From a virus: DNA of 54,659 nucleotides. The position numbers and the translations under genes are program-made. The notes below the pieces were generated by a model. That model worked only from the letters and a program-made list of their open reading frames with translations, searched no databases and was not told the origin of the DNA. Shown here piece after piece: positions 1 to 54,659 of this stretch; position 1 is the first letter of the stretch; the number at the start of each line of letters is the position of its first letter. Location: positions 1 to 54,659 of the IMG/VR virus record IMGVR_UViG_3300033997_000276, one strand, 5' to 3'.

Positions 1-560
1 TTTGCGCTAAACGGTCTGCTGTCGCTGGTGCTGACGATTGAATGATCACTTTGCCTTTGCCATTGGCGATCCCAGCGGCAGCGGCCGCATCAGCTTTAGC
101 TTGATCTGCGGCAGTTTGCGCCGTTGACGCTGCGCTGTTGGCCGCTGTTGCTGTCGCCTGCACCGTAGTGATTTGTGTTGCTAATGCGCTATCAGCATCC
201 GCGCGCGCTGTCTGCTCTTGCTGAATTGCCGCAGCGTTCTGTGTGGCCTTGGTATTGGCCGCATCAGCGGCGGATTGTGCAGCTGCTGCAGCGCTGGCAG
301 CATCCGTGGCCGCTTTATCGGTTACTGCAACCCATGCTGAGCCGTTCCAGCGCTTAGGTGTATTGGCGTTGTTTGTCGTGTCAATCCATAGGTTTTGCGC
401 TAAACGATCTGCAGTGGCAGGCTCGGAAGATTGAATAATCACCTTACCTTTGCCATTGGCGATACCAGCGGCTGCGGCAGCATCGGCCTTGGCTTGATCT
501 GCGGCTGTTTGCGCCGTTGAGGCGGCAGAGTTTGCCGCGGTGGCTGAGGCCTGCACAGTG
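1..560 (-). repeat. ~393-bp coding repeats of the J stalk (left-edge copies)
   Basis: Two units with period 393 bp are visible (equivalent points at 561 and 168). Each encodes an Ala-rich coiled coil plus a KGKVIIQSS...PATADRLAQ segment and a WIDTT...PKRWNGSAW segment. The last unit is cut by the window edge. A third, related copy lies at the right edge (~54250-54659). Divergence is mostly synonymous or small. Confidence 0.85.
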
Positions 561-3500
561 GTGATTTGCGATGCTAAAGCGCTATCGGCATCAGCGCGTG
601 CGGTTTGTTCTTGCTTAATTAAAGCCGCATTGCCATTGACTGTGGCTGAAATACTTATGATTTGGTTTGCCAGCGATTCATCTGCAGTGGATCTCGCCAT
701 TTGCTCTGTGATGATGGCGGCAGTGTTTTTATCAATACTGGCTGAAACCGCATCAATGCTTTTTGCTAAGGCTTCATCGGCCGCAGCTCTTGCATATTGC
801 TCAGACCAAACGCCAGCAAACACCGCAGCAGAACCCGCATTCCAGCTCATATCACCAGCAAGTGGCGGGTTTACTTGCGCAAATATACCGTCAATGCGTG
901 ATGTTTCTGCAGTCAGCTTGCCATCAATAGTTTCTATAGATGTCTCAACATTATCTACACGTACAGTCAATGCAGAAACTGCCTCGCCCAAAGAGGAGTA
1001 TTCACCTATTTTTGTCCAGTAGGCGGTATTTGTTGGCAGTGTTCCTGCAGGTACGGCTTGTTTAGCTGAGTAGAGATTCCCTTGATATTTAACCATCTGC
1101 CCGGTGAGGTAGCTGGCTGCTCCGTCCCACTCTGGTGCGCCTACAATGTCAGCGATATCTCCTTGCATTTGGTAAATTTTTTCCTGAACAAAGCCAATAT
1201 CATCTTCGATAGCAGGAATTTTTCTTACTTCTGTTTCGATAGCGGGAATTTTTCTTACTTCTGTTTCGATAGCGGGAATTTTGCTTACTTCTGTTTCGAT
1301 AGCGGGAATTTTGCTTACTTCTGTTTGAATGTCATGGATTTTATCCGTTTCAATCTTAATGATCGGGATCAGCTCAATCTCTGTTAGCAATTCTTGTCCG
1401 AGCGCTGAGGATGTGATTCGCTCACTGAAATACTCATCATATTTGGTTTGGTCGGTTGAGCTTTGGCCGTTTACAAAGTTAGACCATGGGCCCACGTTGC
1501 CAGTGCGATCAACCAATCGAGCTCTAAACCAAAAGCTAGCGCCGGCACTTAATCCTGTCATGGTGTGAGTGGCAATTGGGTAAGCAAAATCTCCTAGCTT
1601 GATCATGCCACTGTCGTTATTTTTGGGCCCGTATTCAATCTCTGTACGGAGCGTGTCCTCTGCACCTGCAGGGAACAACCAATTTAACGCAATGCCAAAC
1701 ACTAACGGCGTGGTGGTAAAAGATGCAACCGCTGGCGGTAATCCCGTTTTACCCGTGATATTGGTTAGGTCGGACGACTTAGGAACGGACGAAACGTCGA
1801 CAGAGTTGATCGCCCTCACCCGCGCAATATATTGCCCGGTGTAAACGCCACGGATATCAACCGATGTGCTGCTGGTTTTTGGCAGTTTTATCCATTCACC
1901 TGAGTCTTTACGCCATTCCACTTCATAAGCAACTGCATTTTTTGCGGTCGCCCACTGAATAGTCATAGTGGTAACAGAGAGTGTTTGCTCGGTGAATACT
2001 GACTGTGAAATGGTGACTGTTGCTGGCGCTTCTTGGGCACCGATCGGCAACTTGCTTATAGGGCGTTCTTCTAGCCGTGCGCCTGTGTCGATATAGGGGT
2101 ATTTACTTGGGTTATGCTCAACTGCGGTGATCTCGTACTCAATGCTATCGCTATTGGCTTTGGCGACACGCAGCACTCTAAATTGCTGTAGCTTTAGCTC
2201 GTCTGACTCAACCGACCATAGCAGTTGTGGCAATGGCGTTTCGCTGTATTCAGTAGTTACCGTTACCACTCGGCCATTAACGGCCTCAATGGTACGCGCC
2301 TGAGCCTTGCCGCTTGGCAAGTTAATAATCAAGCGGTCGTTAACAGCGATAGTGGCCGCACGGTCTAAGGTGACCTGCTTGCCGTTAACCGCTGAGATAC
2401 GCCCACCAATACGGCTACCTGCAATCAGTTGATCCGCTACGCCAATCACATAACCAGGTAATGGGATGCTACCATCCATACCCACTTTAAAATTAACCGC
2501 ACGGTCATTGTTATTGGTATAAATAGCCCATTTACCGCGGCGCTGCGCCTCTGATTCGCGGGTGCAACCTAAGGCGGATAATTCGACTACGTTGTCGCCA
2601 TAACGGCGCTGTAAGGCTTGATCAGATACCGAGGTAACATCGGACTCATAGGCGTTATCTGGATTATCCCAGCTGACCAAGGCGCGAGTGTATTTAACCT
2701 TTTCGCTGCTCGACGAATAGCTAAATTTGCCGTCGATCACGTTGGCATTGGTGTAGATAAAATCCATATCGCGAGGCATGTCTGCCACTGAGTACATTTG
2801 GCCGTTTGACCAGTACGTCATGCCACGGTAGATAGAGGCCAAATCGCGCAGCACTTGCCACGCCTCTGTTGCCTGCTGAATGTAGATATTGCAGATATAG
2901 CGAGGCTCCATGCCGCCTTTGCCGTCTGGCACCAGCTGATCGCAATATTGGGCAATTTGGTAAAGTTCCCATTTGTCCACCAGCGACGAATTGATCCGCT
3001 TGCCTGTGCCAAAGCGGTCGTCGAGGATAATGTCGTAACTCACCCATGCTGGATTATCGGTCCATGCGATTTTAAAGCTACCGTCCCACACGCCCGTATA
3101 TTCACGGGTAAGCGGATTGTAGTTAGTTGGTACCCGTACTTTGCGCATAAATGGTTCGCACGATACCACAGGAATATTCTGGAATTGGCTGGCATCAAAT
3201 TCCACGTACAACAATGCCGTGTTTGGGTATTTTAGCTTGCGGTCAATCACATCGGTGATCGCTGCAATTTGCATTAAATCTGCCACACGGTTGTTGTTTT
3301 GGTTTGGCGTTAAGCGGCGAATACGGATCTGCCAACTGTTACCAGCAGGTAAATCAATACGGTGGCTGCGCTCATAGGGCTGAGTGGTTTTTCCGTCCAC
3401 CGCGGTGCTTAATACGGTTTGATAGCTACCGCCATCGGTAGAGAGATCAATAGCGTACTCAATGCGATAGCCGTTTACATCGCCGTTATCAAGCTGTTGC

Positions 3501-3904
3501 TGCAGCGCTGGCCAGTGAAAGCGCACCCGAACTGCAGAGAGCAGTGAGTTTGTAATGGCTTTGGTGTATGGCTGCTCTGATTTTAACTCAATCCCTAATG
3601 CCACCTCGTTTTCAACCGATGGTAAGCCAGGAATATAGGTTTGATGTACAGAACCCGGACGAAAGTCCCAAATAACACCGGGGAAGTTTTCAGCGCCATT
3701 GGCATCGAGCAGAGGTGTGCCATCTAAAAACACATTTTGCCCGGATAATTGGCCCTCAAATTCACCTTCACCGATCGCCAGTAAAATCTTAGCTTTGGCG
3801 ATGGAGCGCAGATCATCTGGCGATTCAACCGGAGTACGCTGCTCGCTTTCGCCTGCTTTAGCGCCATGGATAACGAGTTGTTGATTTAATGCGGGAATAC
3901 CCAT
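1..3904 (-). CDS. J: Central tail-tip / host-specificity protein, lambda J-like (5' part; continues across the window edge)
   Basis: J-family proteins build the tail tip and contact the receptor. The ORF starts at ATG 3904 (MGIPALNQQ), 5 bp after the I-like stop, and runs open to base 1. Joining base 1 to base 54659 keeps the frame into the ORF ending at 53740, giving 1607 codons. The N-terminal ~640 residues resemble the J core. A fibronectin-III-like stretch covers roughly residues 645-790. A 10-residue IPAIETEV-type repeat follows (four copies of 30 bp at 1207-1326), and from about residue 1110 there are Ala-rich coiled-coil modules of ~131 residues. This explains why only fragments are open in other frames. 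Because the edge falls in a repeat, the true protein may be longer. Confidence 0.9.
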   Translation of the reverse strand, partial: MGIPALNQQLVIHGAKAGESEQRTPVESPDDLRSIAKAKILLAIGEGEFEGQLSGQNVFLDGTPLLDANGAENFPGVIWDFRPGSVHQTYIPGLPSVENEVALGIELKSEQPYTKAITNSLLSAVRVRFHWPALQQQLDNGDVNGYRIEYAIDLSTDGGSYQTVLSTAVDGKTTQPYERSHRIDLPAGNSWQIRIRRLTPNQNNNRVADLMQIAAITDVIDRKLKYPNTALLYVEFDASQFQNIPVVSCEPFMRKVRVPTNYNPLTREYTGVWDGSFKIAWTDNPAWVSYDIILDDRFGTGKRINSSLVDKWELYQIAQYCDQLVPDGKGGMEPRYICNIYIQQATEAWQVLRDLASIYRGMTYWSNGQMYSVADMPRDMDFIYTNANVIDGKFSYSSSSEKVKYTRALVSWDNPDNAYESDVTSVSDQALQRRYGDNVVELSALGCTRESEAQRRGKWAIYTNNNDRAVNFKVGMDGSIPLPGYVIGVADQLIAGSRIGGRISAVNGKQVTLDRAATIAVNDRLIINLPSGKAQARTIEAVNGRVVTVTTEYSETPLPQLLWSVESDELKLQQFRVLRVAKANSDSIEYEITAVEHNPSKYPYIDTGARLEERPISKLPIGAQEAPATVTISQSVFTEQTLSVTTMTIQWATAKNAVAYEVEWRKDSGEWIKLPKTSSTSVDIRGVYTGQYIARVRAINSVDVSSVPKSSDLTNITGKTGLPPAVASFTTTPLVFGIALNWLFPAGAEDTLRTEIEYGPKNNDSGMIKLGDFAYPIATHTMTGLSAGASFWFRARLVDRTGNVGPWSNFVNGQSSTDQTKYDEYFSERITSSALGQELLTEIELIPIIKIETDKIHDIQTEVSKIPAIETEVSKIPAIETEVRKIPAIETEVRKIPAIEDDIGFVQEKIYQMQGDIADIVGAPEWDGAASYLTGQMVKYQGNLYSAKQAVPAGTLPTNTAYWTKIGEYSSLGEAVSALTVRVDNVETSIETIDGKLTAETSRIDGIFAQVNPPLAGDMSWNAGSAAVFAGVWSEQYARAAADEALAKSIDAVSASIDKNTAAIITEQMARSTADESLANQIISISATVNGNAALIKQEQTARADADSALASQITTVQASATAANSAASTAQTAADQAKADAAAAAGIANGKGKVIIQSSEPATADRLAQNLWIDTTNNANTPKRWNGSAWVAVTDKAATDAASAAAAAQSAADAANTKATQNAAAIQQEQTARADADSALATQITTVQATATAANSAASTAQTAADQAKADAAAAAGIANGKGKVIIQSSAPATADRLAQ
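1207..1326 (-). repeat. Four tandem 30-bp repeats inside J
   Basis: Units begin at 1207, 1237, 1267 and 1297 and differ by only a few bases. They encode a repeated 10-residue IETEVSKIPA-type unit, probably an elongated stalk segment of the tail-tip protein. There are no spacers, so this is not a CRISPR array. Confidence 0.9.
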
Positions 3905-7914: not shown

Positions 7915-8628
7915 TTATCCTGCATAGCGTACTATCAAGCGGGTATTGCGTTGCCAGTATCCGCCATAGATATCGTAGCGGCTAAGGCGCCCGTAGAGGT
8001 GATGCAGGATCTTGCCTTCGCCAACATAAACAGCAGCGTGATTAACTCGCTGGCTTTGGATTTGCATTAAGAACACATCGCCAATTTGTAGATCGGCTAG
8101 ATTGATATTTGGCAGCGCCACAAATCCCGCTTTGGCAAAGTTATCGAGGTATAGCTCTTGCTCACCTTCCCACCAGCCGTCTTGGCGCTCAAAGTCTGGC
8201 AAATGGATTTGTTGCACCTCACGGTACCAATCGCGAACGCAGCTATAGCAATCCCACACGCCATGGACAAACGGACGGTTTAGCAGTGGTTTACGCTCAC
8301 CCGTTGGCACTATGGTGCGTAAGTCACCATCAGGCCAGCTGAGGATATGCCATGGCAAGCCACTCGCCTCACACATGGCGCGATCGCGCTCACTGGGTTT
8401 GCTACTGGCGTCTGGGTGGCTGTGGCAAATACCGATTATTGCGCCTTGTTCGTCAATATCCGCGTATTGCTGCGGATCAATCACAAACTCATCGGCTTTG
8501 TTAGTTGCCTTGTTTTCGCATGGCACATATTGCGCTTTGTTGCCTTGCCGGATCAGCAGGCCACAACATTCGTGAGGGTAGCAGCTAGCCGCATGCTGAC
8601 TGAAGGCATGTAAAATGGTTGGATGCAT
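7915..8628 (-). CDS. K: Tail tip assembly peptidase, lambda K-like (JAMM + NlpC/P60)
   Basis: A 237-residue, two-domain protein. The N-terminal half is a Mov34/JAMM domain: HECCGLL (Glu), HSHP followed by SERD as metal ligands. The C-terminal half is NlpC/P60: WDCYSCVRDWY with the catalytic Cys, then NHAAVYVG with the His. K-like proteins act in tail-tip assembly and cell-wall cleavage. It follows the L-like gene (stop at 8680) as in lambda. Confidence 0.9.
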   Translation of the reverse strand: MHPTILHAFSQHAASCYPHECCGLLIRQGNKAQYVPCENKATNKADEFVIDPQQYADIDEQGAIIGICHSHPDASSKPSERDRAMCEASGLPWHILSWPDGDLRTIVPTGERKPLLNRPFVHGVWDCYSCVRDWYREVQQIHLPDFERQDGWWEGEQELYLDNFAKAGFVALPNINLADLQIGDVFLMQIQSQRVNHAAVYVGEGKILHHLYGRLSRYDIYGGYWQRNTRLIVRYAG

Positions 8629-8679: not shown

Positions 8680-9420
8680 TTAACGTATTAGCCTAACGCT
8701 TGGGAAGCCGCCATGGGGTAATTCGTTATTTTCGCCAAAGCGTAAGGTGCAGCCTTTTATTGTGCCTGAGCACTGGTCTAGCGCTGGGTTATCGGTTGGT
8801 TGATCTTCATCGGTAAACATGGCCTCTCCTGTGTAGCCACAATCCGCGCCGCGATATTCACCCCGTTGGCACCAGTAGCAATACGCAGTCATTTGCCTAC
8901 CGATTTTATAGCCAGAAAGGTCGGCAGGGTTAGACAGCTCAAAGGTAACGGCGACATTATCCTCGTTGACCTTTTTATCGACATACCAAATCTCAATCGC
9001 TTCTTGAGTTGGATCCGCCTCACTATTGCCGCCGGGGAAGTTGGCTGCATCAAGATATTTTGCCAGCGTGCGGCGAATAGTGACCTTAGCTTGCTCCATA
9101 TTTTGAAAATACAAACACAAGGCACTAATGCTGCCATCGAGGTTAGCCACCGTTAGCGTTGGCGTACTTGGCGAGCCATCTGAGTTAACCTCTACCCCTT
9201 CTAGCTGGGCTGGCCATGGATTGTATTCTTCGCCCTGCCAATAAATCACTTTTGCTGGCAGTGGCTGCTGTGTTTGTGCTGCTTGTGTTAGCTCAGCCTC
9301 GGTATAGCTCAAATTATGGGAATGAAACCGCAGTATATCGGCGCCAAAGGCGGTACCGTCGATTTCGTAGAGAATAATCTCATTGCCCGGTTCGAGGGTT
9401 TGAATATCTGCACTAAGCAT
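8680..9420 (-). CDS. L: Minor tail protein, lambda L-like
   Basis: A 246-residue protein matching the Phage_tail_L family (PF05100). The N-terminal half is beta-rich with IWYVDKK and DLSGYKIGRQMTAYCYW. The C-terminal part has a cysteine cluster (CYWCQRG, DCGYTG, LDQCSG, IKGC) corresponding to the iron-sulfur site described for lambda L. Four Cys positions are intact. It is part of the tail tip, and the gene overlaps the preceding small ORF by 8 bp. Confidence 0.88.
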   Translation of the reverse strand: MLSADIQTLEPGNEIILYEIDGTAFGADILRFHSHNLSYTEAELTQAAQTQQPLPAKVIYWQGEEYNPWPAQLEGVEVNSDGSPSTPTLTVANLDGSISALCLYFQNMEQAKVTIRRTLAKYLDAANFPGGNSEADPTQEAIEIWYVDKKVNEDNVAVTFELSNPADLSGYKIGRQMTAYCYWCQRGEYRGADCGYTGEAMFTDEDQPTDNPALDQCSGTIKGCTLRFGENNELPHGGFPSVRLIR

Positions 9421-9694
9421 CGGCTGATACCATAGGGAATCTTGCTTTTATTTCTAGCACTTTGGCTCGCCATTTTGCTTCTGTAGCGGGCGTCTTATCG
9501 TATTGCCACTCCAAAAATAACGGGTCTGACTCTTGTACGTATGCCGCCTTTCTTTTTGTAATGACGCCTTCTCCTTCTTCGTAAGATTTTTGATTCATCA
9601 CTGACTCAATCTGCTCAACACTCATGCCGATTTCCAGCATGTAGTCATTTGATGTGTCAGTGTGAGATTTGCCCTCAAAAATATAACTAAACAT
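9413..9694 (-). CDS. Small tail-associated protein after the DGR reverse transcriptase
   Basis: A 93-residue product starting at ATG 9694 with AAGAGG upstream, overlapping the RT stop. The C-terminal segment (ESDPLFLEWQYDKTPATEA, then LEIKARFP) is a short helical module I have seen at the ends of phage tail-fibre proteins and tail chaperone-like ORFs. It could help display or assemble the variable protein. Not assigned to a family with certainty. Confidence 0.55.
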   Translation of the reverse strand: MFSYIFEGKSHTDTSNDYMLEIGMSVEQIESVMNQKSYEEGEGVITKRKAAYVQESDPLFLEWQYDKTPATEAKWRAKVLEIKARFPMVSADA

Positions 9695-10961
9695 GTTCAC
9701 CTCTTTTAAATGGCTGGCTTAATAGTGAGACTCTTAGCGAAAATGTATCAGCGTGGCTGGCGTGGCCGATCCATGACTGTATCGTTTGGTTTATGTCTTT
9801 AATATCAATCTCTCCAGCACTGTATTTTTTGCGAAATATTTTTAACTTTGCTTTAATGCGCTTTACGCTGCTTTTGCGCAGTAACTTTTTATTTGCGTAT
9901 ATGCGATAGCCAAGAAAATCAAGGCTTCTTCCGGCAGATGCTGCCACGGGGAATACCTGAGTTTTGCTGTTTGTTTTCAGCCTTAGCTGACAATTAATGA
10001 ATCTCTCTATCATCACCCTCCACTGATGCAGCTGCTGCTTGTCGTGATGAATAATCACAAAATCATCCATGTATCTGACGTAATTTTTGGCTTTTAGCGT
10101 ATGCTTAGCGAATCTGTCCAGCTCGTTTAGGTATAGGTTTGCAAAAACTTGGCTGGTGAGATTGCCAAGAGGGATCCCAACGCCGTGCGCGTCAGAAGGG
10201 CTGCTGTCTATGATGTAAAACAGTAGGCACTTGGTGCGCTCACACTGTATTTTAGCGCTGACAAGCGACTTAAGTATGTGGTGATCTATGCTAGAGAAAT
10301 AGCGGCTAATATCCGCTTTTAGCGCGAAAGCCTTGCCGTGCGTTTTCTCTACGCGCCTAATAAAGAGCTGAGCTCTATCAGCTCCCTTGTGAGTTCCTTT
10401 GCCGCGGCGGCAGGCGTAAGAGTCGTGGATGTATTGCCGATCAAAAATCGGCTCGATGATGTTATAAATTGCGCGGTGCACCACTCTGTCTCGAAAGCTG
10501 GGCGCAGATATTAATCTTCGCTTTGGCTCGAACACATAAAAATGGTGGTATGGCGATGATAGGTACATGCCCCAAATCAACTCGTTTTGGATCTGGATGA
10601 TATTTTCTTCTAGATTGTTAAAAAATACTAATGTGCTATTTGATTTCGTTTTCCCTTTGCGGCACTGATAAGCCGCATTTAGTAAATTTTCAAACTGATA
10701 TATTTGCTCAAATAAACAGCCCACTGGCGCACCGGCGGGCGTGGCTAAATCTATTTCGGCAATGGCCGGGGCTAGTGCATCCTTTTCATTTTTGCGCTGG
10801 CAGCACCCAGTAAGATGCTTGCTTCTGGCGTAATCAAGAGCTGGACGGAAACCGATGTTGATGTTCGAGTTCGAACGCGGGTTATTGAGGTTGAGCGCGC
10901 CAAGGCCGGCGTTGACGCCGTTGTTCCAGTTGCCGCCACGGATCGGTTCCAGTGTATTCAT
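9687..10961 (-). CDS. DGR reverse transcriptase
   Basis: The RT copies the TR RNA with adenine-specific errors for mutagenic homing. The core from about residue 84 (CLFEQIYQFENLL) to the end has the DGR-type order: EPKRRLISAPSFRDRVVHRA, HDSYACRRGKGTHKG, ADISRYFSSIDH, IPLGNLTSQVFANLYL (the SQ-containing motif 4 typical of DGR RTs), YMDDFVI at ~296, and LDFLGYRI. No X/maturase or msr/msd features were seen. The ORF opens at ATG 10961, overlapping the avd stop as ATGA, so it would translate the TR in frame. A shorter start is possible, for example GTG 10724 (345 residues). Confidence 0.93.
   Translation of the reverse strand: MNTLEPIRGGNWNNGVNAGLGALNLNNPRSNSNINIGFRPALDYARSKHLTGCCQRKNEKDALAPAIAEIDLATPAGAPVGCLFEQIYQFENLLNAAYQCRKGKTKSNSTLVFFNNLEENIIQIQNELIWGMYLSSPYHHFYVFEPKRRLISAPSFRDRVVHRAIYNIIEPIFDRQYIHDSYACRRGKGTHKGADRAQLFIRRVEKTHGKAFALKADISRYFSSIDHHILKSLVSAKIQCERTKCLLFYIIDSSPSDAHGVGIPLGNLTSQVFANLYLNELDRFAKHTLKAKNYVRYMDDFVIIHHDKQQLHQWRVMIERFINCQLRLKTNSKTQVFPVAASAGRSLDFLGYRIYANKKLLRKSSVKRIKAKLKIFRKKYSAGEIDIKDINQTIQSWIGHASHADTFSLRVSLLSQPFKRGEHV
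10839..10947 (-). repeat. DGR template repeat (TR)
   Basis: A 109-bp block that aligns without gaps to the VR at 11383-11491 (constant offset 544). In coding orientation it is rich in AAC codons. Of its 25 adenines, 11 differ in VR, and no other base differs. It lies between avd and the RT core, the same order as in Bordetella phage BPP-1 (variable gene, avd, TR, RT). Confidence 0.95.
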
Positions 10962-11311
10962 AATGCATTAGCCTGTTTATTGTTAATTGATTTAATCCAT
11001 CCTCCCGTCATTTTGCCAATTTCAACAATCTGCACTATCCATCGCTGATACCGGCTGATGTCGATATAACGCAGATCCTTGGCCAGCCTTATCATCCGCT
11101 TTAGCACCGCTAGTTCTACGTCCAAGTCGGTTAAGGTGGTCTTTTTGTGGTAGCGCTTCATTGCAGTGATGATTAGGCGCTGCATATGCAGCATTGACCG
11201 CCGAATTTCAGCGCCAAGAACATGTGTTTCATGTTTTGGGAATTGCTTAATGGCTTGATAGCCAAACACTATCATCTCTCTGCATTTTTCTTCAATTATC
11301 AATGCTGGCAC
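10958..11311 (-). CDS. avd: DGR accessory variability determinant Avd
   Basis: A 117-residue helical protein with the characteristic Avd pattern of a four-helix bundle related to 23S-intervening-sequence proteins: FPKHETHVLGAEIRRSML, LIITAMKRYHKKTTLTDLD, ELAVLKRMIRLAKDLRYI, then EIGKMTGGWIKS. Avd forms a basic pentamer that binds the RT and TR RNA and is needed for homing. It lies between the variable gene and TR, and its stop overlaps the ATG of the RT ORF. Confidence 0.93.
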   Translation of the reverse strand: MPALIIEEKCREMIVFGYQAIKQFPKHETHVLGAEIRRSMLHMQRLIITAMKRYHKKTTLTDLDVELAVLKRMIRLAKDLRYIDISRYQRWIVQIVEIGKMTGGWIKSINNKQANAL

Positions 11312-11333
11312 TGGCGATACCTTTTAATTAACC

Positions 11334-11351
11334 GCCGCGCTATCGCGCAGC
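11334..11351 (-). promoter_or_regulatory. Hairpin with GATA tetraloop downstream of VR
   Basis: On the coding strand a 7-bp stem (one T-G) encloses the loop GATA, fitting the GRNA loop rule known for DGR target-site hairpins. It lies between the stop of the variable gene and avd, 31 nt past the VR end. It is farther away than in BPP-1, and no such hairpin follows TR. Confidence 0.6.
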
Positions 11352-11370
11352 TAACAGAACACAGTCTACT

Positions 11371-12576
11371 TTACGCAAAATAAGCTGGACGGAAACCGAT
11401 GTCGACGTTCGAGATCGAACGCGGGAGACTGAGGCTGAGCGCGCCAAGGCCGGCGTTGACGCCGCTGCTCCAGTGGCCGCCACGGAGCGGTAATCGCTGG
11501 CCGAAGTTGCGCACGTACACTCGTCCCTGCAAATTATTTGCAGTAGCCGTCTCAATAAGCAGCCGACGCATCAACTCGCTGGGGGTGTATGCTGCATCCT
11601 TTGTTAGTAATTTAAAATCCACGGTAGCCGAATTGCCAGCGTTAGCACTGTCTCCTATTGCTCCAAGTCGGTTGATCACTTGGCTATTTAGCCGTGGCGC
11701 TCCGCCTGTGGGCGAAGTTGAATCGTAAAATGCTTGATGTGAAACCCAGTTAACCTCGGCAACAGATGGGTCATTGTCGAGCGTTGTTTTTATCTGTCCT
11801 TCTGAAAGCAACATTTGATCTTGCCACTCCCAAATATTTCCAACTAAATCGTGGATACCATGCACAGTGTGGTCATGCGTCCATGTTGCAGGGCCTTTTC
11901 CGGTGTCAGTTCTTCCTGTGCCACTCGCGTCACCTGGTACACCATTATCTGCACGGCGGGCCGTTTCATGCAGTTTATCGTGAGCGCGACCATAGTTTGT
12001 ATTGCCGCGGGGCACAGTACCGTTAGCAAGAGACCATAGCGCAATTGCCGCCCACTCATGCATTGACATTAAATGCCAATTCGCGCCTTTGTTGGTGCAC
12101 CGTGATTTTGCTTGATCATAATTAACTCCGGTTAACGGCTGCACACCACCAACAACTGAGCACGTTGTACCTCCAGCGCTGGCAAGATATTTTGCGATCA
12201 ATATTTCTCCGCGTGAGGCTCCGTTTGTCAGAAAGGCGGTTGGTGTTCCCGTTCCAAGTTGTAGGTCAGTTAGGCCAAGCGATTCGTAGGTGAATCGCGG
12301 CACAACAACCATCACATTTGGATTGCCTTGGGCGTCATAAATGACAGTGTTGCGACCGCCGCTTAACGCCTCAACCTCCTGTCGACGTGGATCTTTAATC
12401 AGAATCTGCAGTCCTGCTTTGTCAATGACATGATTATCATTTGACGTGCCGACTTCGCGGGAAGCGGAATGAGTCGGCGAGCTGAAATTAGCATTAAATT
12501 TTTCGGCTAAGTTACGCGCTGTATCGCCGCCAGCTCCCGACGGAGATGTGCCTAGATTGACTGTTGCTATAGCCAT
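11371..12576 (-). CDS. DGR variable protein, FGE-sulfatase/C-type-lectin fold, probable tail adhesin
   Basis: This 401-residue protein has ATG 12576 preceded by GGAG. The N-terminal ~100 residues resemble the tail-fibre leader NLGTSPSGAGGDTAR...EKFNANF. A central and C-terminal formylglycine-generating-enzyme-like fold follows: LMSMHEWAAIALWS, then DLVGNIWEW near residue 243. The C-terminus, residues ~362-398 (LRGGHWSSGVNAGLG...DIGFRPA), is the VR. DGR targets of this fold bind ligands through the variable surface. Its place between M- and L-like tail genes suggests a virion receptor-binding component. Being displayed on the virion is inferred. Confidence 0.92.
   Translation of the reverse strand: MAIATVNLGTSPSGAGGDTARNLAEKFNANFSSPTHSASREVGTSNDNHVIDKAGLQILIKDPRRQEVEALSGGRNTVIYDAQGNPNVMVVVPRFTYESLGLTDLQLGTGTPTAFLTNGASRGEILIAKYLASAGGTTCSVVGGVQPLTGVNYDQAKSRCTNKGANWHLMSMHEWAAIALWSLANGTVPRGNTNYGRAHDKLHETARRADNGVPGDASGTGRTDTGKGPATWTHDHTVHGIHDLVGNIWEWQDQMLLSEGQIKTTLDNDPSVAEVNWVSHQAFYDSTSPTGGAPRLNSQVINRLGAIGDSANAGNSATVDFKLLTKDAAYTPSELMRRLLIETATANNLQGRVYVRNFGQRLPLRGGHWSSGVNAGLGALSLSLPRSISNVDIGFRPAYFA
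11383..11491 (-). repeat. DGR variable repeat (VR)
   Basis: A 109-bp copy of TR at the 3' end of the variable gene. It has 11 substitutions, each opposite a TR adenine: seven A-to-G or A-to-C changes at Asn codons and others giving N to H, S, L, I or D, plus I to L and I to V. The last ~20 bp in coding direction (11383-11402) are identical to TR and would include the IMH. Confidence 0.95.
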
Positions 12577-12615: not shown

Positions 12616-12951
12616 TCAAGGATGAAATGCTTGTTCGAAAGTGGCGGCGATGCGATACATGCCGCCGCCTAATGGGGTGTTGGTGACCTGCTTAACTTGC
12701 CATAGCGATGCAGTGCCAAGGGGTGGCGTCCAGATAAATGACGTAGCGCCTTGGTGTTCGTCAAGAAAGGCGACTATCGCCTCGGCCGTGGCTTTGTTTT
12801 TGGTAAACGTCAGCGGCCAGCTCTGCACCTTGCTGTTAATGCCATCGCCTACTGATTGGCGGTAGCCATCACCAAACTGAGCGGTGCGAGTACGATATTG
12901 GGTGTCGCCTGTGGCGCCATTATCTGGCGCCCATGTGAATGTTTGCGGCAT
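12616..12951 (-). CDS. M: Minor tail protein, lambda M-like
   Basis: A 111-residue protein of the Phage_min_tail family (PF05939): TFTWAPDNGATGDTQYRTRT, AQFGDGYRQSVGDGIN, then FIWTPPLG and FEQAFHP. It forms part of the tail tip near the tape measure. It lies one small gene after the tape measure, as lambda M follows H. A 40-bp gap separates it from the DGR variable gene. Confidence 0.9.
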   Translation of the reverse strand: MPQTFTWAPDNGATGDTQYRTRTAQFGDGYRQSVGDGINSKVQSWPLTFTKNKATAEAIVAFLDEHQGATSFIWTPPLGTASLWQVKQVTNTPLGGGMYRIAATFEQAFHP

Positions 12952-13261: not shown

Positions 13262-16200
13262 TTAATACCCTCCCTTCATTGCTCGCCAAATCATTCCACC
13301 CGGTCTAAGTTCTAGCGCGATTTGTGTTTTAGTACCTTGCTTAGATGACTCCGCGTAAGCCTTAATAACCTCGTTCATATTTGTATTGTTAGCCCCGTTA
13401 TTGTTATTACTTTCTGGCACAATAATTTGCTGATTGATGATGACGTTAGGACTTGTTCCAGCCATTGCGGCAGCAGGAACGCCGTTATAGGCTGCGCCGC
13501 CAACTACACCACCGTCCGCATAGCCTTTGTGGCCTTTACGCATGGCTTCAACCGTGGCCACACCACCCGCACGGGCGATATCTTGTTGTGACCAAACCAC
13601 CTCACCTTTATGCACGATGCCAGCAGGCTCATACTTGCCACCCGCGCCAGTGTATCCGCCTGATGATTTGCCGTTTTTAATCCATTTTTGATAAGCGTCT
13701 CCGGTGTAATCGGATGCACTACTACCTCCAACAACCCCACCATCTGCAAACCCAAACATGCTGCCAATAAATCCAGCAATGGCTTTTTGCATGGCGATTT
13801 TGGCAAGATCAGCCAAGATAGACTTGGTTAGCTCCGCAAAGTCGGCCTTACCTGAGGTGACAAAGTCGGTAAGCGCGTCGGTCATACCGCCAAAGGCGTT
13901 GTCCATTAACCGCTCTGTTTGCCCAGCCATATCTGCGGCGGCATCAATGTAATTCTCCATTGATGAACGGGCACCATTTGTCCAATCGGCTTGTTTGGCG
14001 TCGAGGGCGATGTAATACGCATTTTTTTCATCAAGCAGTTTTGCTTGATGATCTTTTAGCATCAACAACTGCTGTTGATATTCTTCGTCAGTCGTTCTGC
14101 CAGCTAGGTTATCGGATAATGCTTTTCCCTTGGCGCTTTCTATTTCGCGCTCAATGCTTTGGCGATCACCTAGGCGTTGTTGTGCTTTATCGCCTAAGCC
14201 AAAGCTGGAGAGTTTGTCGGCATTGCGTTGTTGCTCTGCAGCTAAGTTGGCCGCAAGGTTGGCGCTATAGCTTTGTTGACGTAAGGCCTGATCGCGCAAC
14301 TTTATTTGCTCTGCCAGCGCAACGTTCATTTGGTTTTCGGCGCGAAGCTGGTCTTCTTTTGCTAGATAGCTTTTTTGATCTGCCGTGAGAATGTCTTTTG
14401 ATTTCAAATCCGCGATTTGCTGCTCAAACTGCAATAGCTCCTTTTGCGATTGCGTCAGTTTAGTGTTGCTGTCTAGTTGGCCTTGCAAGCCTGCTTGAGT
14501 TTCGCGCAGGCGCATCAGGTAGCTAGTTGCAGCATCATCGGCAAAGGCTTTGGTGGTTTTGGCAGAGTCTTTAAACTTTTCTTCGATCGAGGCGAGTGTG
14601 CGCTTGATTACCTCAGGATTTAGCAGGGCGTTGTTTGGATCATCCTTGCGCAACTCTTCTATTTCTTTATTATATTTTTCAATCTCTTTGGTGCGCTTTT
14701 GCTCATTTGTTAGGCTTTTTTCATTTTCAGCGCCTAAATACTTAACCCGCTCAATGCGCTCTAGTTCAAGCTTTGTACGCTCGCCTTCAAGTCTGGCTAA
14801 TTCTTCCTCTTTCTGAATCTGTTTTACCAGCTCATTACCTTCTGCCTGTAACTTGGCTAATTGGTTTTCACGGCGGATTGCCTCACGGCCAGACCCCTTA
14901 CCCTTAGCAATTAGCGCATTTATTTCTTTTGCATTTTCTGCAAGCAATTGTTTTTTATCTGGGCCATTAAGGTAATACATTGCTCCGCGAATCATCGCGT
15001 CCCAACCTTCAGATGAAACCTCTTTTACCGTTTTCCAAGCGCCCTCGATACGACCAAGGTTTGCAGTAATCTCCTTGGTGCGCTGATCAATAGCATTGCC
15101 ATAGGCACTAAAGGCGAGTTCTGCGGCCTCAGTGGATTTACCCGCTTCTTTTAAGGCAACAATTTGCTGATAGGTTGATGCTGTAAGAAAGTTATATTTT
15201 TTATTAAGTTCTTCGGCAGCTTTTACCGGGTCATCGGCCAGTTTGACAAATTCCGCCACCGTATCAGCAACAGCTTTTCCGGTGACGTCTTCCATTTTAA
15301 CGGCAGCAAGGCCAACTAGCTCGATTTGGCTGGCGGTAAACTTGCCAGTATTGGCAACCTCAGCTAATGCAGCAGCGGCTTGGCGCTGAGTACCGCTAAT
15401 GGCATCAATACGCTTTGCGGCGTCCATAAGTTCGTCAGAGGTGGCACCCGCTGAGTTGCCAGTTAAGATCAGCGCATTTCTAAGTCTATCGGCTTCTACG
15501 CTACCCTGATAATACGCCAGTGCCATTACACCCGCTGCCGCAGCAGCTACGGTAAATGGATTAACTAAACCTAAAATATATGTACCAACACCGCTAATAG
15601 CGGGACCGATGCCGCCAAACATATCGCTGATTTGAGCACCTTGTTGCAGCAATACCGTCAGAGCATCTTGGCCACCTTGCAGTGATACTGCAATATCGTT
15701 AAATTGCGCTGGCAATCCGCGGATTGCCCAACCCAATTGACTTGAGGACTTAGCGCCAGCCGCATACTCCTCATTAGTCCCAACTAAATCTCGGCGCATT
15801 TCAGACAAACGTTTAGAGTAAAGGTCATATTCAGATGAATTTATTAAGCCTTTGGCAGAGCTAGATCTTAATAACTCTTGCGCTTTATCGAGCTCTCTAA
15901 TTTCAAAGATGACAGGATCAAGTCTTTGCTGCAGCCGTTGTAATTCTGACTGTTGTTGCTTGGTTTCCGCCTCAGCCTTCATTTGCGCTTCTGTTGTGCC
16001 ATCAATGGCCGAGCGCATTTGGTTAAGTTTTACTATTGCGCTATCGTATTGTCCCTTATCTATATTACCTGCAGCGAAGGCCGCTGATAGTTTAGTATTT
16101 TGCGATTCTAACTCTGCCAGCTTTGCTGTTACTGGATCTAACTGACGCAATAGCCCTTGCAGTTCCGCTTGCTCTTTTTGCTGAGCAGATTGCAGCCGAC

Positions 16201-16690
16201 CTGATGCGGTATATGCCCTGTCATACTCTTCACGCATTGTTGATAGCTGAGCATTATATTTTGTGAAATCTTCGCCACTGATAACACCCACTTTTACGCC
16301 TTCAGATAACCGCGCTTGCATGTTGTCTAATTCGGCATATTTAGCGATTGCAGGGTCTAGCTGGCTTACGACTCGGTTGATCTGCTTGTATTGGTCAGCG
16401 AAAGCCGAGTTTGCTTCATACGTGGCATTTTTAGTTTGTTCTAAGCGTTCCGATAAGATTTCGAACTCACGACCATTAAATATTCCCTTGTCATTTAACT
16501 CTGCAAGACGGCGCTGCTGAACTTCTAGGCTAGATAGCTGTGATATCAGCGGATCAATCTGTTTCACCATTCTGGCTGTCGCATTTTCAGCCTTTAATGA
16601 TGCACGCTCAGCTTTACTCATGCCTTCAACAAAGCTGCCCGTTTCGGCAAGCATGTTTAGCGTTAGTGTGCCGAGTGACTTATTTGCCAT
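13262..16690 (-). CDS. Tape measure protein, lambda H-like
   Basis: A 1142-residue protein that sets tail length. The N-terminal ~330 residues are long heptad-rich helices with an internally repeated pattern (QLDPxxxxxxELxxxxxxLxxxxxxGxI, four times). A conserved block AVSLQGGQDALTVLLQQGAQ with hydrophobic segments follows at ~365-400. Further coiled coils come next, then a Gly-rich C-terminus (GFADGGVVGG, GKYEPAGIVHKGEVVW) typical of H-family C-termini. It follows the tail chaperones. Confidence 0.93.
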   Translation of the reverse strand: MANKSLGTLTLNMLAETGSFVEGMSKAERASLKAENATARMVKQIDPLISQLSSLEVQQRRLAELNDKGIFNGREFEILSERLEQTKNATYEANSAFADQYKQINRVVSQLDPAIAKYAELDNMQARLSEGVKVGVISGEDFTKYNAQLSTMREEYDRAYTASGRLQSAQQKEQAELQGLLRQLDPVTAKLAELESQNTKLSAAFAAGNIDKGQYDSAIVKLNQMRSAIDGTTEAQMKAEAETKQQQSELQRLQQRLDPVIFEIRELDKAQELLRSSSAKGLINSSEYDLYSKRLSEMRRDLVGTNEEYAAGAKSSSQLGWAIRGLPAQFNDIAVSLQGGQDALTVLLQQGAQISDMFGGIGPAISGVGTYILGLVNPFTVAAAAAGVMALAYYQGSVEADRLRNALILTGNSAGATSDELMDAAKRIDAISGTQRQAAAALAEVANTGKFTASQIELVGLAAVKMEDVTGKAVADTVAEFVKLADDPVKAAEELNKKYNFLTASTYQQIVALKEAGKSTEAAELAFSAYGNAIDQRTKEITANLGRIEGAWKTVKEVSSEGWDAMIRGAMYYLNGPDKKQLLAENAKEINALIAKGKGSGREAIRRENQLAKLQAEGNELVKQIQKEEELARLEGERTKLELERIERVKYLGAENEKSLTNEQKRTKEIEKYNKEIEELRKDDPNNALLNPEVIKRTLASIEEKFKDSAKTTKAFADDAATSYLMRLRETQAGLQGQLDSNTKLTQSQKELLQFEQQIADLKSKDILTADQKSYLAKEDQLRAENQMNVALAEQIKLRDQALRQQSYSANLAANLAAEQQRNADKLSSFGLGDKAQQRLGDRQSIEREIESAKGKALSDNLAGRTTDEEYQQQLLMLKDHQAKLLDEKNAYYIALDAKQADWTNGARSSMENYIDAAADMAGQTERLMDNAFGGMTDALTDFVTSGKADFAELTKSILADLAKIAMQKAIAGFIGSMFGFADGGVVGGSSASDYTGDAYQKWIKNGKSSGGYTGAGGKYEPAGIVHKGEVVWSQQDIARAGGVATVEAMRKGHKGYADGGVVGGAAYNGVPAAAMAGTSPNVIINQQIIVPESNNNNGANNTNMNEVIKAYAESSKQGTKTQIALELRPGGMIWRAMKGGY

Positions 16691-35422: not shown

Positions 35423-36335
35423 GTGATGATCTCGCTAGCAGTTTGGCGTTAAGTTTGTCCCATTGTTTACGGAGGGTTTTTGGGCATAACACATTGCTCG
35501 CCCAAAATGAGTCGGAGTTGGCAAACTTAAACAGCTTGCAGATGTCGTGGTGAGTGCGCTTGTCTTGCACACGCATCAAGCGCACTTGGTTAGCCCAATC
35601 AGGCCAATTCGGTTGCTTTGCAGTGGGGTTAACAATCAGCACTTTGTTGAAGATGTACTCAGCACAGGTTAAATCGTCTTGAGTGCCCCAAAGCTTGCCA
35701 TTGGGAGTTTGAATAGCAGCATCGGGTTTAACCTGCATGTCGGCCATTGCGTTAGCAATGTGCGACGAAGAGATCTTTTGTATTTCTTTTGTATTAATGT
35801 CTTTCTTTTGTAGGGGTCTATCTAGACAGTTTTTACTGTCAGAACAGACAGCCTCGCTGTCAGAATAGACAGGTTTTACTGTCAGAATAGACAGTGAATT
35901 TTTACTGTCAGAATTGACAGTTTTTGCCTTTGCTGTTTTATCAGTCCAAGAAGAAACCGTTGGGTTAACCCCAATTTTCTTGCCGTCTTTTATCAGCACA
36001 TTGCGCTTTAATAAGCCGCCAATCACCCGCGATACGTTGTCAGTATCGATATCCGTCATTTCTTCTATTTGACTGTACGATACCCAGTCAGTGGCCTTGC
36101 CGTAGCCATAGGTTCTACGGATAACAGCAAATAAAACACGACTCTCACGATCGCTTAATTTCGTGCGGCACAGGGCGTCCACCAGCGTATTGGAGAGTCG
36201 TAAATAACCATCATCCAAATCTGCTTTCACCACCCCACCCCGCGCATGCTGTTTATTGTCAGCAACGGGCCGTAACGGCACCACATTACTGCCACCAGCG
36301 CCATGATTGACGCTATCAATTGATTCCAGTACCAT
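35256..36335 (-). CDS. O: Replication initiator O-like protein
   Basis: About 359 residues. I take ATG 36335 (MVLESIDSVNHG) with GAGG upstream; a longer frame from 36374 crosses a hairpin (36358-36389). The N-terminal winged-helix region GYLRLSNTLVDALCRTKLSDRESRVLFAVIRRTYGYGK is the Phage_rep_O domain. The middle (PVYSDSEAVCSDSKN) is encoded by the iterons. Its C-terminus overlaps the P-like gene. It binds the iterons and recruits P/DnaB. Confidence 0.87.
   Translation of the reverse strand: MVLESIDSVNHGAGGSNVVPLRPVADNKQHARGGVVKADLDDGYLRLSNTLVDALCRTKLSDRESRVLFAVIRRTYGYGKATDWVSYSQIEEMTDIDTDNVSRVIGGLLKRNVLIKDGKKIGVNPTVSSWTDKTAKAKTVNSDSKNSLSILTVKPVYSDSEAVCSDSKNCLDRPLQKKDINTKEIQKISSSHIANAMADMQVKPDAAIQTPNGKLWGTQDDLTCAEYIFNKVLIVNPTAKQPNWPDWANQVRLMRVQDKRTHHDICKLFKFANSDSFWASNVLCPKTLRKQWDKLNAKLLARSSHETTAIDSAGHNQRYENPTARVFRQLREMAASLDEQNDCQGGHAGADPRDEFIQS
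35836..35920. other. Replication origin iterons inside the O-like gene
   Basis: Four copies of a 16-bp partial palindrome of the form CTGTCAGAAnnGACAG at 35836, 35857, 35879 and 35905 (spacing 21, 22, 26 bp). A degenerate fifth (GACAG) is at 35825-35829. The lambda origin also sits in O, with four iterons. The region is AT-rich between copies. Confidence 0.88.
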
Positions 36336-50008: not shown

Positions 50009-50283
50009 TGTTTGAGTTTACTGAAGATAAAAAAGGTTTAAGACCTAAGTATATTGGCACAATCAAACATAACGGAATTAGAAGAACGTTAATGATTCTG
50101 ATGATATTTCCACTTATTTCAGCCACTATTTTTTTGAATATTTTTGCATTTATTGGCTTTGTAATTATGGCGTTTTGGAAACTTATTTTATTAGGAACAT
50201 TCAAGATTCTTGCTTGTATGTTTCAGGCTAAAACATGGGAAGTATGGCATAAGCCAAGGCAGGTGCATGATGACTCTAAATGA
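50008..50283 (+). CDS. Small membrane protein
   Basis: A 91-residue protein with two hydrophobic segments (MILMIFPLISATIFLNIFAF, then IMAFWKLILLGTFKILACM) and basic ends. No family recognised. Confidence 0.6.
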   Translation: MFEFTEDKKGLRPKYIGTIKHNGIRRTLMILMIFPLISATIFLNIFAFIGFVIMAFWKLILLGTFKILACMFQAKTWEVWHKPRQVHDDSK

Positions 50284-50560
50284 CCGCATGAATTTGCTTA
50301 TCGCAGAGAACGAGCAGCTTAAAGCCGAACGGCTTCAAATGCTGACTAAATTTGGTGAGTTAAATCGTGACAAGTTAAGGCTCGATCTACTTGATGATGT
50401 TAACGCTGGTTTCAATAAAGAAAAAGGCACTTTATACGGATGGGCTGTTCATTGGAACCATAACAGAATTTCTCTACATGATAGCGACCCTATGAAGAAG
50501 TCAGTTAGACAAGCAATCGATGAGTTTGCATCAAAAATAAATAAGGCAGGTGCAGCATGA
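50270..50560 (+). CDS. Hypothetical protein
   Basis: A 96-residue protein from ATG 50270. Its MTLN start is the same as in the next gene. Helical start (NLLIAENEQLKAERLQM), then FASKINKAG. No family recognised. Confidence 0.55.
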   Translation: MTLNDRMNLLIAENEQLKAERLQMLTKFGELNRDKLRLDLLDDVNAGFNKEKGTLYGWAVHWNHNRISLHDSDPMKKSVRQAIDEFASKINKAGAA

Positions 50561-50727
50561 CTCTAAATATCGGAGAAGCGTACCAGTTTAAAGGTGTACG
50601 AGATCAAATCATCTATGTCGGTAAAGAAGGAAATTGGCACCAGTTCGAGCTTAATGGAGAGCCTGGTGTTATTTGGTGCGAGTTGTTAGATACCGACTTG
50701 CATTTAATTGAAAAGGCAGGTGCATAA
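50557..50727 (+). CDS. Small hypothetical protein
   Basis: 56 residues, start coupled to the upstream gene by overlap and stop coupled to the excisionase by TAATG. Pattern FKGVRDQIIYVGKEGNWH. Unknown function. Confidence 0.5.
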   Translation: MTLNIGEAYQFKGVRDQIIYVGKEGNWHQFELNGEPGVIWCELLDTDLHLIEKAGA

Positions 50728-50939
50728 TGTTTCAGCAAGAAATAGAAGCTATGCAGGGTAAAGTGGTGCAGCAGTTTTTCTCGCCAGCTCAACTTGCAAA
50801 AGCGTTGGGGATTGGCACAACCAAGCTATACCAACTGTTTAAGTTGGAAGACTTCCCAAAACCAACCACTAACCCGCACTTTAAAAACAAGTACAACTTT
50901 CAAGAAGTTAAAGCGTGGATTTATGAGAATGAAAAATGA
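50727..50939 (+). CDS. xis: Excisionase/AlpA-like HTH protein
   Basis: A 70-residue protein with a winged/MerR-like HTH: FFSPAQLAKALGIGTTKLYQ, then FPKPTTNPHFKNKYNFQEVKAWI. It ends 5 bp from the integrase stop, facing it. Excisionase role is inferred from this position and size. Confidence 0.72.
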   Translation: MFQQEIEAMQGKVVQQFFSPAQLAKALGIGTTKLYQLFKLEDFPKPTTNPHFKNKYNFQEVKAWIYENEK

Positions 50940-52636: not shown

Positions 52637-53743
52637 TTAGAAATAATCATCTTCATGTATGTATGGGATTGGCGAATTAGCCGAAGATTCTCCCCAGTAA
52701 CCAAATGCACTACCTCCGACCGGCATACTACCTGAGCCTTTGGTTAATACTCCGCAAGTGAAAGTGCCATCTGATTTAAGCCATATACCGACAGGAAAAG
52801 GGGTAAAGCTGAGCTTTGCTGCGCCGATCAATCTAGCCTGAAACATCGGCTTTTTGGTAGCGAAGTTTGGGAATTGCTGCGGATTTGAATCGCCAATTGC
52901 ATGCCAACCAACCGAGCCAGGAGGGTTTGCTAATGGTGTAGGTGAGTTAAGATATCCTCTTGGCATTTCTGGCGGGTTTGCTGAACTAAATGCCACGCCA
53001 CCATCGTCACCATAAAACGCTAACCCCCAACTTGGCAGGATTTGCAATGGTGACCCAAAGGCAATAATTCTGACTGTGCCAGATCTTGGAGGCTCTTCAT
53101 TATAGGTCGATCCAACATTATACAAACCGCCTGCTCTTAAGCACTTAACTCGCCAGTAACCTCCACTTGAATAAACGTAAGATGCCATGGCGTTGTAACC
53201 TGTATCGCTTACATAAACACTTGGCGGCGGTTCTATTGATGCAATTGCGGTTGAAACGTCAATTTCTCTATCTGCATTGGTGATTGTGTATTTAAATCGC
53301 TCTACGTTTAAGCGGTTAGCATTTGATAAGGCTACCGCTACTCCGCCATCAGAAAATAGTATCCCGTAGTTATCTGGGACATTGGATACAGGGTAATACG
53401 CATAAACATTAAATTTAACGACAGAGTTATTTAGTGGGGAGTCTGCGCCACCGTACCAAAGGCTTTGTGATAGCGTTACCCTGCCGCCATCGCACTTACT
53501 GCTAACAATGTAACCAGTGTAAACTGTGCTGCCAAAGCTGACATAAGAGCTGTGCCTAACTGCTGCTCCAGCAGGCTGAATAAAAAGCCTACAACCATTC
53601 GGTATGATAAAGTCTTGCACAACATCTGCTGAAGATAGATATTTTACGGTAAACTCAATTGTTCCTTTAAAGGCCATTGGATACCATCCGCTGGTGATAT
53701 CTATGGTCCGATCTTGAGCGTAAAGCGCTAATCCATAACTCAT
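52637..53743 (-). CDS. Tail protein encoded after J (DUF6453-like)
   Basis: A 368-residue protein overlapping the J-like stop by 4 bp (ATGA). Starts MSYGLALYAQDRTIDITSG, a beginning I have seen in tail-tip associated proteins after J. Mostly beta, with several Gly/Ser-rich parts, no coiled coil. May be a tail-tip decoration or receptor-binding component. Family is a memory match only. Confidence 0.65.
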   Translation of the reverse strand: MSYGLALYAQDRTIDITSGWYPMAFKGTIEFTVKYLSSADVVQDFIIPNGCRLFIQPAGAAVRHSSYVSFGSTVYTGYIVSSKCDGGRVTLSQSLWYGGADSPLNNSVVKFNVYAYYPVSNVPDNYGILFSDGGVAVALSNANRLNVERFKYTITNADREIDVSTAIASIEPPPSVYVSDTGYNAMASYVYSSGGYWRVKCLRAGGLYNVGSTYNEEPPRSGTVRIIAFGSPLQILPSWGLAFYGDDGGVAFSSANPPEMPRGYLNSPTPLANPPGSVGWHAIGDSNPQQFPNFATKKPMFQARLIGAAKLSFTPFPVGIWLKSDGTFTCGVLTKGSGSMPVGGSAFGYWGESSANSPIPYIHEDDYF

Positions 53744-54659
53744 ATAAGTTTGCCCAGTCTGATTTTCAGTGTGCCAGCTGCGTCATAGACATCGATTCTT
53801 TCATTGGTCATTCTCATGCGGCCTTGGCCAGCTTGATACCCGTTGATTTCGAAAAGCCCATTTTTATCTAACTTCCAACCAATTGAGTTAGCAACATAGT
53901 TTGTTGACTGGATATAGCTGCCGATCTTAGCGTTGGTGATTGTGCCATCGCCAATTACGGCACTATTAATAAATACCTGACCACCTTGGACAACGAAAGG
54001 CGTGGTAATGGTCGATGTGCCAGTAATTTGATTCACAATCGCAAATCTATCCGCAGTAAACAGTACCTGAGGTTGCATACCTGCTGGTGTGTTCTCAATA
54101 CCGATCGCCATGCCTGCGCCGTAGTATTTACCGTCTGCAGTCACCCCAACTTTTATTGAGTACATTGCTTGCAACTTGCCATCTAATTGGGCTAATGCGG
54201 TAGATGTTTGCTGTACAGCGGCAGTGTTAGCCCCTGCTGTGGCCTGCACGGTATCAATGCGCTGACCTAAGGCGCTATCAGCATTGGCGCGTGCTGTCTG
54301 CTCGGTTTGGATGGCAGCTGCGTTTTGCGTGGCCTTGGTGTTGGCTGCATCGGCGGCAGCTTGTGCGGCTGCGGCGGCGCTGGCGGCATCCGTGGCCGCT
54401 TTATCAGTGACAGCAACCCAAGCTGAGCCGTTCCAGCGTTTTGGCGTATTGGCGCTGCCTGTGGTGTCAATCCATAGGTTTTGCGCTAAGCGGTCTGCAG
54501 TGGCAGGCGCAGACGATTGAATAATCACCTTACCTTTGCCATTGGCGATCCCAGCGGCAGCGGCCGCATCAGCTTTAGCTTGATCTGCGGCAGTTTGCGC
54601 CGTTGAGGCCGCAGTGTTCGCCGATGTTGCCGAGGCCTGCACCGTACTAATATTTTGAG
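53740..54659 (-). CDS. J: Central tail-tip protein J, 3' part (continued from base 1)
   Basis: This is the C-terminal ~305 residues of the J-like protein. The frame is open to the right edge and continues that of base 1 if the ends are joined. It starts in the same ~393-bp repeat as the left edge (KGKVIIQSSAPATADRLAQ again). Near the end is a DUF1983-type part (YSIKVGVTADGKYYGAGMAI, then LFTADRFAIVNQITG), then a coil-free C-terminus. It binds or positions the receptor at the tail tip. Confidence 0.9.
   Translation of the reverse strand, partial: QNISTVQASATSANTAASTAQTAADQAKADAAAAAGIANGKGKVIIQSSAPATADRLAQNLWIDTTGSANTPKRWNGSAWVAVTDKAATDAASAAAAAQAAADAANTKATQNAAAIQTEQTARANADSALGQRIDTVQATAGANTAAVQQTSTALAQLDGKLQAMYSIKVGVTADGKYYGAGMAIGIENTPAGMQPQVLFTADRFAIVNQITGTSTITTPFVVQGGQVFINSAVIGDGTITNAKIGSYIQSTNYVANSIGWKLDKNGLFEINGYQAGQGRMRMTNERIDVYDAAGTLKIRLGKLI
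54250..54659 (-). repeat. ~393-bp coding repeat of the J stalk (right-edge copy)
   Basis: Bases from about 54480 to 54640 are nearly identical to bases 1-160 (over 70 bp without a difference), and the whole copy matches the unit at 168-560. The window edges therefore sit inside one repeat family. Confidence 0.85.

Follow-up and report, generated by a model that had tools for sequence, protein, structure and literature searches.

The window, a virus record analyzed over its full 54,659 bases, very probably carries a complete diversity-generating retroelement (DGR) among the tail-operon genes of a lambda-like siphophage, with an avd-TR-RT transcript that would serve as both mRNA and template and a variable protein (VP) that is most likely receptor-binding. 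With such an element, a phage copies a template with errors and thereby alters the tip of a single tail protein; adenine mutagenesis is the hallmark of mutagenic homing. Its mechanism is ordinary. The VHML/VP58.5/ACA lineage, known mostly from phages with P2-like tails, thereby gains a new member that is complete, likely active, and associated with a lambda-like tail. As mRNA, the avd-TR-RT transcript would encode the N-terminus of the reverse transcriptase (RT) from the template repeat (TR) and spacer; as template, the same transcript would act via TR and the structured spacer. The RT together with Avd would copy this template with errors at adenines, and the cDNA would replace the variable region (VR) in the VP C-terminus, guided by an IMH-like 3' end and a GATA hairpin. 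As VP is most likely receptor-binding, the element would yield variants able to track changes of the host surface.

All four cassette genes were encoded on the minus strand. These were VP (11371-12576, 401 aa) of the FGE/C-type-lectin type (PF03781, phrog_2889, and TaqVP homology), the accessory variability determinant avd (10958-11311, 117 aa; PF22296 with 108 bits, NF033474 with 106 bits against a cut-off of 80, and phrog_3206), the DGR RT (9687-10961, 424 aa; PF00078 and phrog_1423) containing the motifs GIPLGNLTSQ (SQ motif) and YMDD, and orf95 (9413-9700), a fourth gene from phrog_5714, a family without functional annotation, that was kept after RT in relatives. The M-like (12616-12951, minus strand; PF05939) and L-like (8680-9420, minus strand; PF05100) minor tail proteins suggested as neighbors in a preliminary description of the sequence were both confirmed by their family matches, with the tape measure (13262-16690) upstream and a K-like tail gene (7915-8628) and a J-like gene for a large J-type central fiber (2-3904) downstream. 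That description had delimited a block at 9687-12576 containing VP, avd, and an RT with SQ motif and YMDD in BPP-1-like order. The parts and their order (VP-avd-TR-RT) stood, but TR was not located ahead of the RT gene, being part of its reading frame, and conservation of the cassette reached farther, to the fourth gene ending at 9413.

Adenine-specific differences between the repeats

TR (10839-10947, minus strand, in frame within the RT gene) and VR (11383-11491, minus strand) aligned over 109 nt at an offset of 544 with minus as the coding strand, and recomputation exactly reproduced the coordinates and gapless alignment given earlier. It also returned the same 11 mismatches, every one at a TR adenine, out of 25 available (TR content 25 A, 39 C, 26 G, and 19 T), for which the hypergeometric chance of 11 of 11 random differences falling on A was 1.2e-8. 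The changes altered 10 VR codons (I>L, N>H, four N>S, N>L, N>I, I>V, and N>D), and the TR adenines were almost exclusively at codon positions 1 and 2 such that residues can change freely. A blind direct-repeat search recovered the pair as family D6 and found no third TR/VR copy within the window.

The comparison covered 36 viral and three genome loci plus the annotated phages VP58.5, VHML, ACA1, ACA2, and proACA1-A. Over 37 cassettes, TR and VR differed at 446 of 944 TR adenines compared to 32 of 3336 other TR positions, with 13 of the 32 contributed by one locus where the 5' end was placed too far out. VR that varies at adenines while TR remains constant had been proposed as a check on sequencing reads and was instead observed among relatives, where the pair L019/L022 had 14 differences in VR and ACA1/ACA2 had 19, with zero in the VP upstream segment, avd, TR, and RT in both pairs. 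The VR-only divergence of ACA1 and ACA2 was already published (PMC10612066).

An ordinary duplication or gene conversion beside an RT of the group II intron, retron, or defense type had a negligible probability. The best NCBIfam model for the RT was a group II maturase, although below its cut-off (137 vs. 300 bits), while no defense or retron model exceeded its own cut-off, avd passed the DGR model, and adenine-only differences in nearly all related cassettes spoke against duplication or conversion. Taken with avd and the hairpin described below, the adenine-only pattern refuted duplication, conversion, and a non-DGR RT, and chance was rejected as well. The DGR reading put forward in the preliminary description was likewise backed by family models, adenine-only change, a GRNA-type hairpin, and VR diversity among relatives.

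The same cassette with lambda-like neighbors was identified in contig L007 and in L008 (IMGVR_UViG_639633059_000001, prophage-type, 54,609 bases), the latter of which may correspond to the DGR of Shewanella sp. W3-18-1. VR of L008 and L007 differed from the window at 13 and 15 of 109 sites, respectively, compared to two to three sites in TR. The TRs of the window and L007 carried different bases at offsets 67, 86, and 96, and all three polymorphisms recurred in the respective VRs; the TR polymorphisms relative to the nearest relative that recurred in this way were at non-adenine sites. VR was therefore recopied from TR after the window and L007 lineages split, with the direction given by the adenine-only differences. 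VP upstream of VR also differed between the window and L008 (9%, 82/883), making the VR contrast weaker in the window's lineage than in the other pairs. An RT search of 129 genomes from the genus of the Shewanella record L043 returned only L043's own RT at the threshold used.

Loss of TR adenines was observed in two relatives, all A to G, at five sites in L012:996-1112 and three sites in L020:5864-5979. VR had the same bases in L012 and still had A at two sites in L020, such that back-copying from VR alone is insufficient to account for the loss and mutagenic homing into TR is a possible source.

Cis elements beyond the variable region

The 3' end of VR was IMH-like (ATCGGTTTCCGTCCAGCT, 11383-11400, minus strand) with the same bases in TR, and its last adenine was invariant, differing in 0 of 12 loci tested; its putative role is taken by analogy from BPP-1. 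Located 31 nt past VR was the hairpin GCTGCGC-GATA-GCGCGGC (11334-11351, minus strand) with seven pairs including one G-T, and its GATA loop, seven pairs, and position downstream of VR defined it as GRNA-type. A hairpin 31-33 nt past VR with a G[AG]TA loop was present in 36 of 36 loci compared to 4% of shuffled sequences. In phage DGRs, including VHML and Shewanella sp. W3-18-1, hairpins with a GRNA loop occur at a distance of 4-34 bp from VR and are required for BPP-1 homing (PMC3240598), suggesting by comparison with BPP-1 that the GATA hairpin is likely the target-recognition element. An Rfam search of the region gave no match.

Template repeat and spacer inside the RT reading frame

The RT start codon overlapped the avd stop codon (ATGA), from which TR is predicted to be translated as the RT N-terminus, with residues 1-42 derived from TR plus a short leader, residues 43-82 from the spacer, and the RT domain starting from about residue 83. 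The frame through TR and spacer was kept in nearly all checkable relatives, with the VHML record as the exception. In that record (L003:7081-7668) the RT frame opened only after TR, unlike the window, and avd was interrupted, with either mutation or sequencing error as the source of both. A start downstream of TR was considered unlikely for the window since several relatives had no ATG, GTG, or TTG between the ATGA start and the RT domain, and the spacer evolved as coding sequence (dN/dS of 0.19 in TR and 0.29 in the spacer, with indels of whole codons).

Synonymous divergence was 0.52 in TR and 0.45 in the spacer, approximately half of the 0.84 in the RT domain. Alignment of 16 relatives further revealed three covarying RNA hairpins in the spacer on the minus strand, namely hairpin 1 (10804-10817, five pairs in the alignment), hairpin 2 (10757-10768, four pairs), and hairpin 3 (10719-10740, nine pairs in the alignment, seven with compensatory changes, and one C-A mismatch in the window). 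Together they contained 44 cells with two-sided changes compared to 12.5 in shuffles and at most six when slid. From dN/dS, synonymous divergence, and covariation, we infer that the same TR and spacer bases are constrained jointly as protein and as RNA; this dual constraint was not found stated in the DGR literature cited here. Translation of TR in the ACA phages was noted by the authors and termed uncommon (PMC10612066), and the structured spacer of BPP-1 recruits RT-Avd and primes cDNA synthesis (PMC12875486).

A broader and tentative possibility is that one stretch of RNA combines the template, the landing fold for RT-Avd, and the code for the RT N-terminus, while VP and orf95 travel together as a receptor module, exchanging the tail adaptor and acquiring or shedding the DGR. 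If so, translation through the template could gate reverse transcription, or the RT N-terminus, being VR-like, could itself serve some function. The relatives provide a comparative set where the template and the structured spacer RNA overlap the coding sequence of RT, such that a hindering or controlling effect of translation on template use is directly testable.

Variable protein as a likely receptor-binding tail part

The VP profile matched one solved protein, 5vf4 (E 4.5e-76), that is the Thermus aquaticus DGR variable protein TaqVP and was also matched by Foldseek with the low-confidence VP model (E about 1e-18). The AlphaFold VP model was poor (pLDDT 52, 26 sequences), so the fold assignment rests on TaqVP homology. 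PF03781 and this homology agreed with the FGE-like assignment made from the sequence earlier. The homology with TaqVP (PMC6328139) extended over residues about 61-401, with VR at the C-terminus of both proteins and a common C-terminal frame GGxWxxG...GLxALxL...GxRPAF. TaqVP was solved as a single-domain monomer and has no tail-adaptor N-terminus, unlike the window VP.

The VP N-terminal segment (approximately residues 1-60) was tail-type specific. An NLGTSPxGxxGDTAR segment was common to the lambda-like window, L008, and L017, an unrelated helical-looking segment was found in P2-like loci, and a third kind was present in other loci. The segment of the P2-like relatives resembled that of a tail protein from a phage that has no DGR. 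Variation of this kind with tail type would be anticipated for an adaptor to the virion, and it suggests that swapping of the N-terminus lets the diversified domain pass from one tail type to another. VP is most likely a diversified receptor-binding part of the tail and likely has a role in host range, and its ACA homolog was detected by mass spectrometry and named an antireceptor (PMC10612066).

An unlikely alternative is that the DGR works on a VP that is a side decoration or secreted binding protein, leaving host choice to the J-like central fiber. The large J-type fiber encoded in the window is consistent with this reading, as are the very high antireceptor counts seen by the ACA authors, who remarked that there may be more to this protein (PMC10612066). 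On the other hand, the VP gene is within the tail-tip operon, its N-terminus follows the tail type, and ACA1 and ACA2 infect different species while differing mainly in VR (PMC10612066), all in favor of a receptor-binding tail part.

Relationship with known DGR systems

VHML, VP58.5, ACA1, and ACA2 (PMC10612066) shared with the window homologous VP, avd, RT, and fourth genes arranged identically, TR/VR differences confined to adenines, and a GRNA-type hairpin, and for the ACA phages and VP58.5 TR was likewise in frame within the N-terminal part of RT. Their tails are contractile and P2-like and their VP begins with a different N-terminus, whereas the window has a lambda-like tail with the cassette located between the M- and L-like genes. 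The cassette was therefore found on both lambda-like and P2-like tails. The BPP-1 system (mtd-avd-TR-brt) was similar to the window in part order, adenine mutagenesis, Avd, and a hairpin past VR. The BPP-1 Brt was also 42% identical to the window RT. However, the two aligned only from window residue 83, and the BPP-1 spacer is between TR and brt (PMC12875486) whereas TR and spacer are within the RT frame of the window.

Fourth gene and loss of the DGR machinery

Homologs of orf95 followed RT in the related cassettes reaching that far, although weak in the L031-L036 group, with 49-59% identity to more distant lineage members, and in ACA1 this fourth gene had already been assigned to the module (PMC10612066). 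A distant homolog was identified after a run of tail-fiber genes in ICP2. In Vibrio phage 1.137.O (L049:22651-24299), a VP homolog with a VR-like end abutted an orf95 homolog, and no avd or RT was found in this partial-genome record. In Vibrio phage pYD38-B (L050:3047-4786), a deletion joined the beginning of avd directly to the RT end; the VP homolog with its VR-like end stayed open and the orf95 homolog was kept. That orf95 stays beside VP where the DGR genes are gone suggests it goes with VP and not with the mutagenesis machinery, and from this context it is plausible that orf95 assists VP, for example in assembly; a chaperone role would be a guess from the same context. The orf95 monomer model was confident and gave no significant structure match in the PDB or BFVD, and no Pfam family or convincing solved relative was identified.

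The decayed relatives pYD38-B and 1.137.O, along with the frameshifted RT of proACA1-A, raise the prospect that the DGR was once active and is now defunct in this phage, and two features of the window would also be compatible with this, namely the G-T pair of its target hairpin and the mismatch in spacer hairpin 3. Such a relic is improbable, as the open frames, SQ motif, YMDD, TR, VR, and target hairpin were all intact in the window and VR carried the TR polymorphisms of its own lineage. Furthermore, over 377 aa the RT was 98% identical to those of L007 and L008, indicating that it is under protein constraint. Based on these sequence features, the DGR is probably functional in this phage.

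Repeats and ends of the window

Joining the contig ends as a circle (1-3904 and 53740-54659) produced a single open J-like frame of 1607 residues, such that the record may be circularly permuted and nearly a whole genome; the J-like gene also had repeats 81-86% alike that could mislead assembly. Tandem repeats of 30 nt coding for the 10-residue IETEVSKIPA were identified in the J-like fiber gene (1175-1354). Elsewhere, a 29-nt TAGACAG...CTGTCAG...GACAG element occurred three times at 35823-35920 and was operator- or origin-like, and a 26-nt AAGGCAGGTGCA..ATG element occurred three times at 50256-50738, where small frames begin or end.
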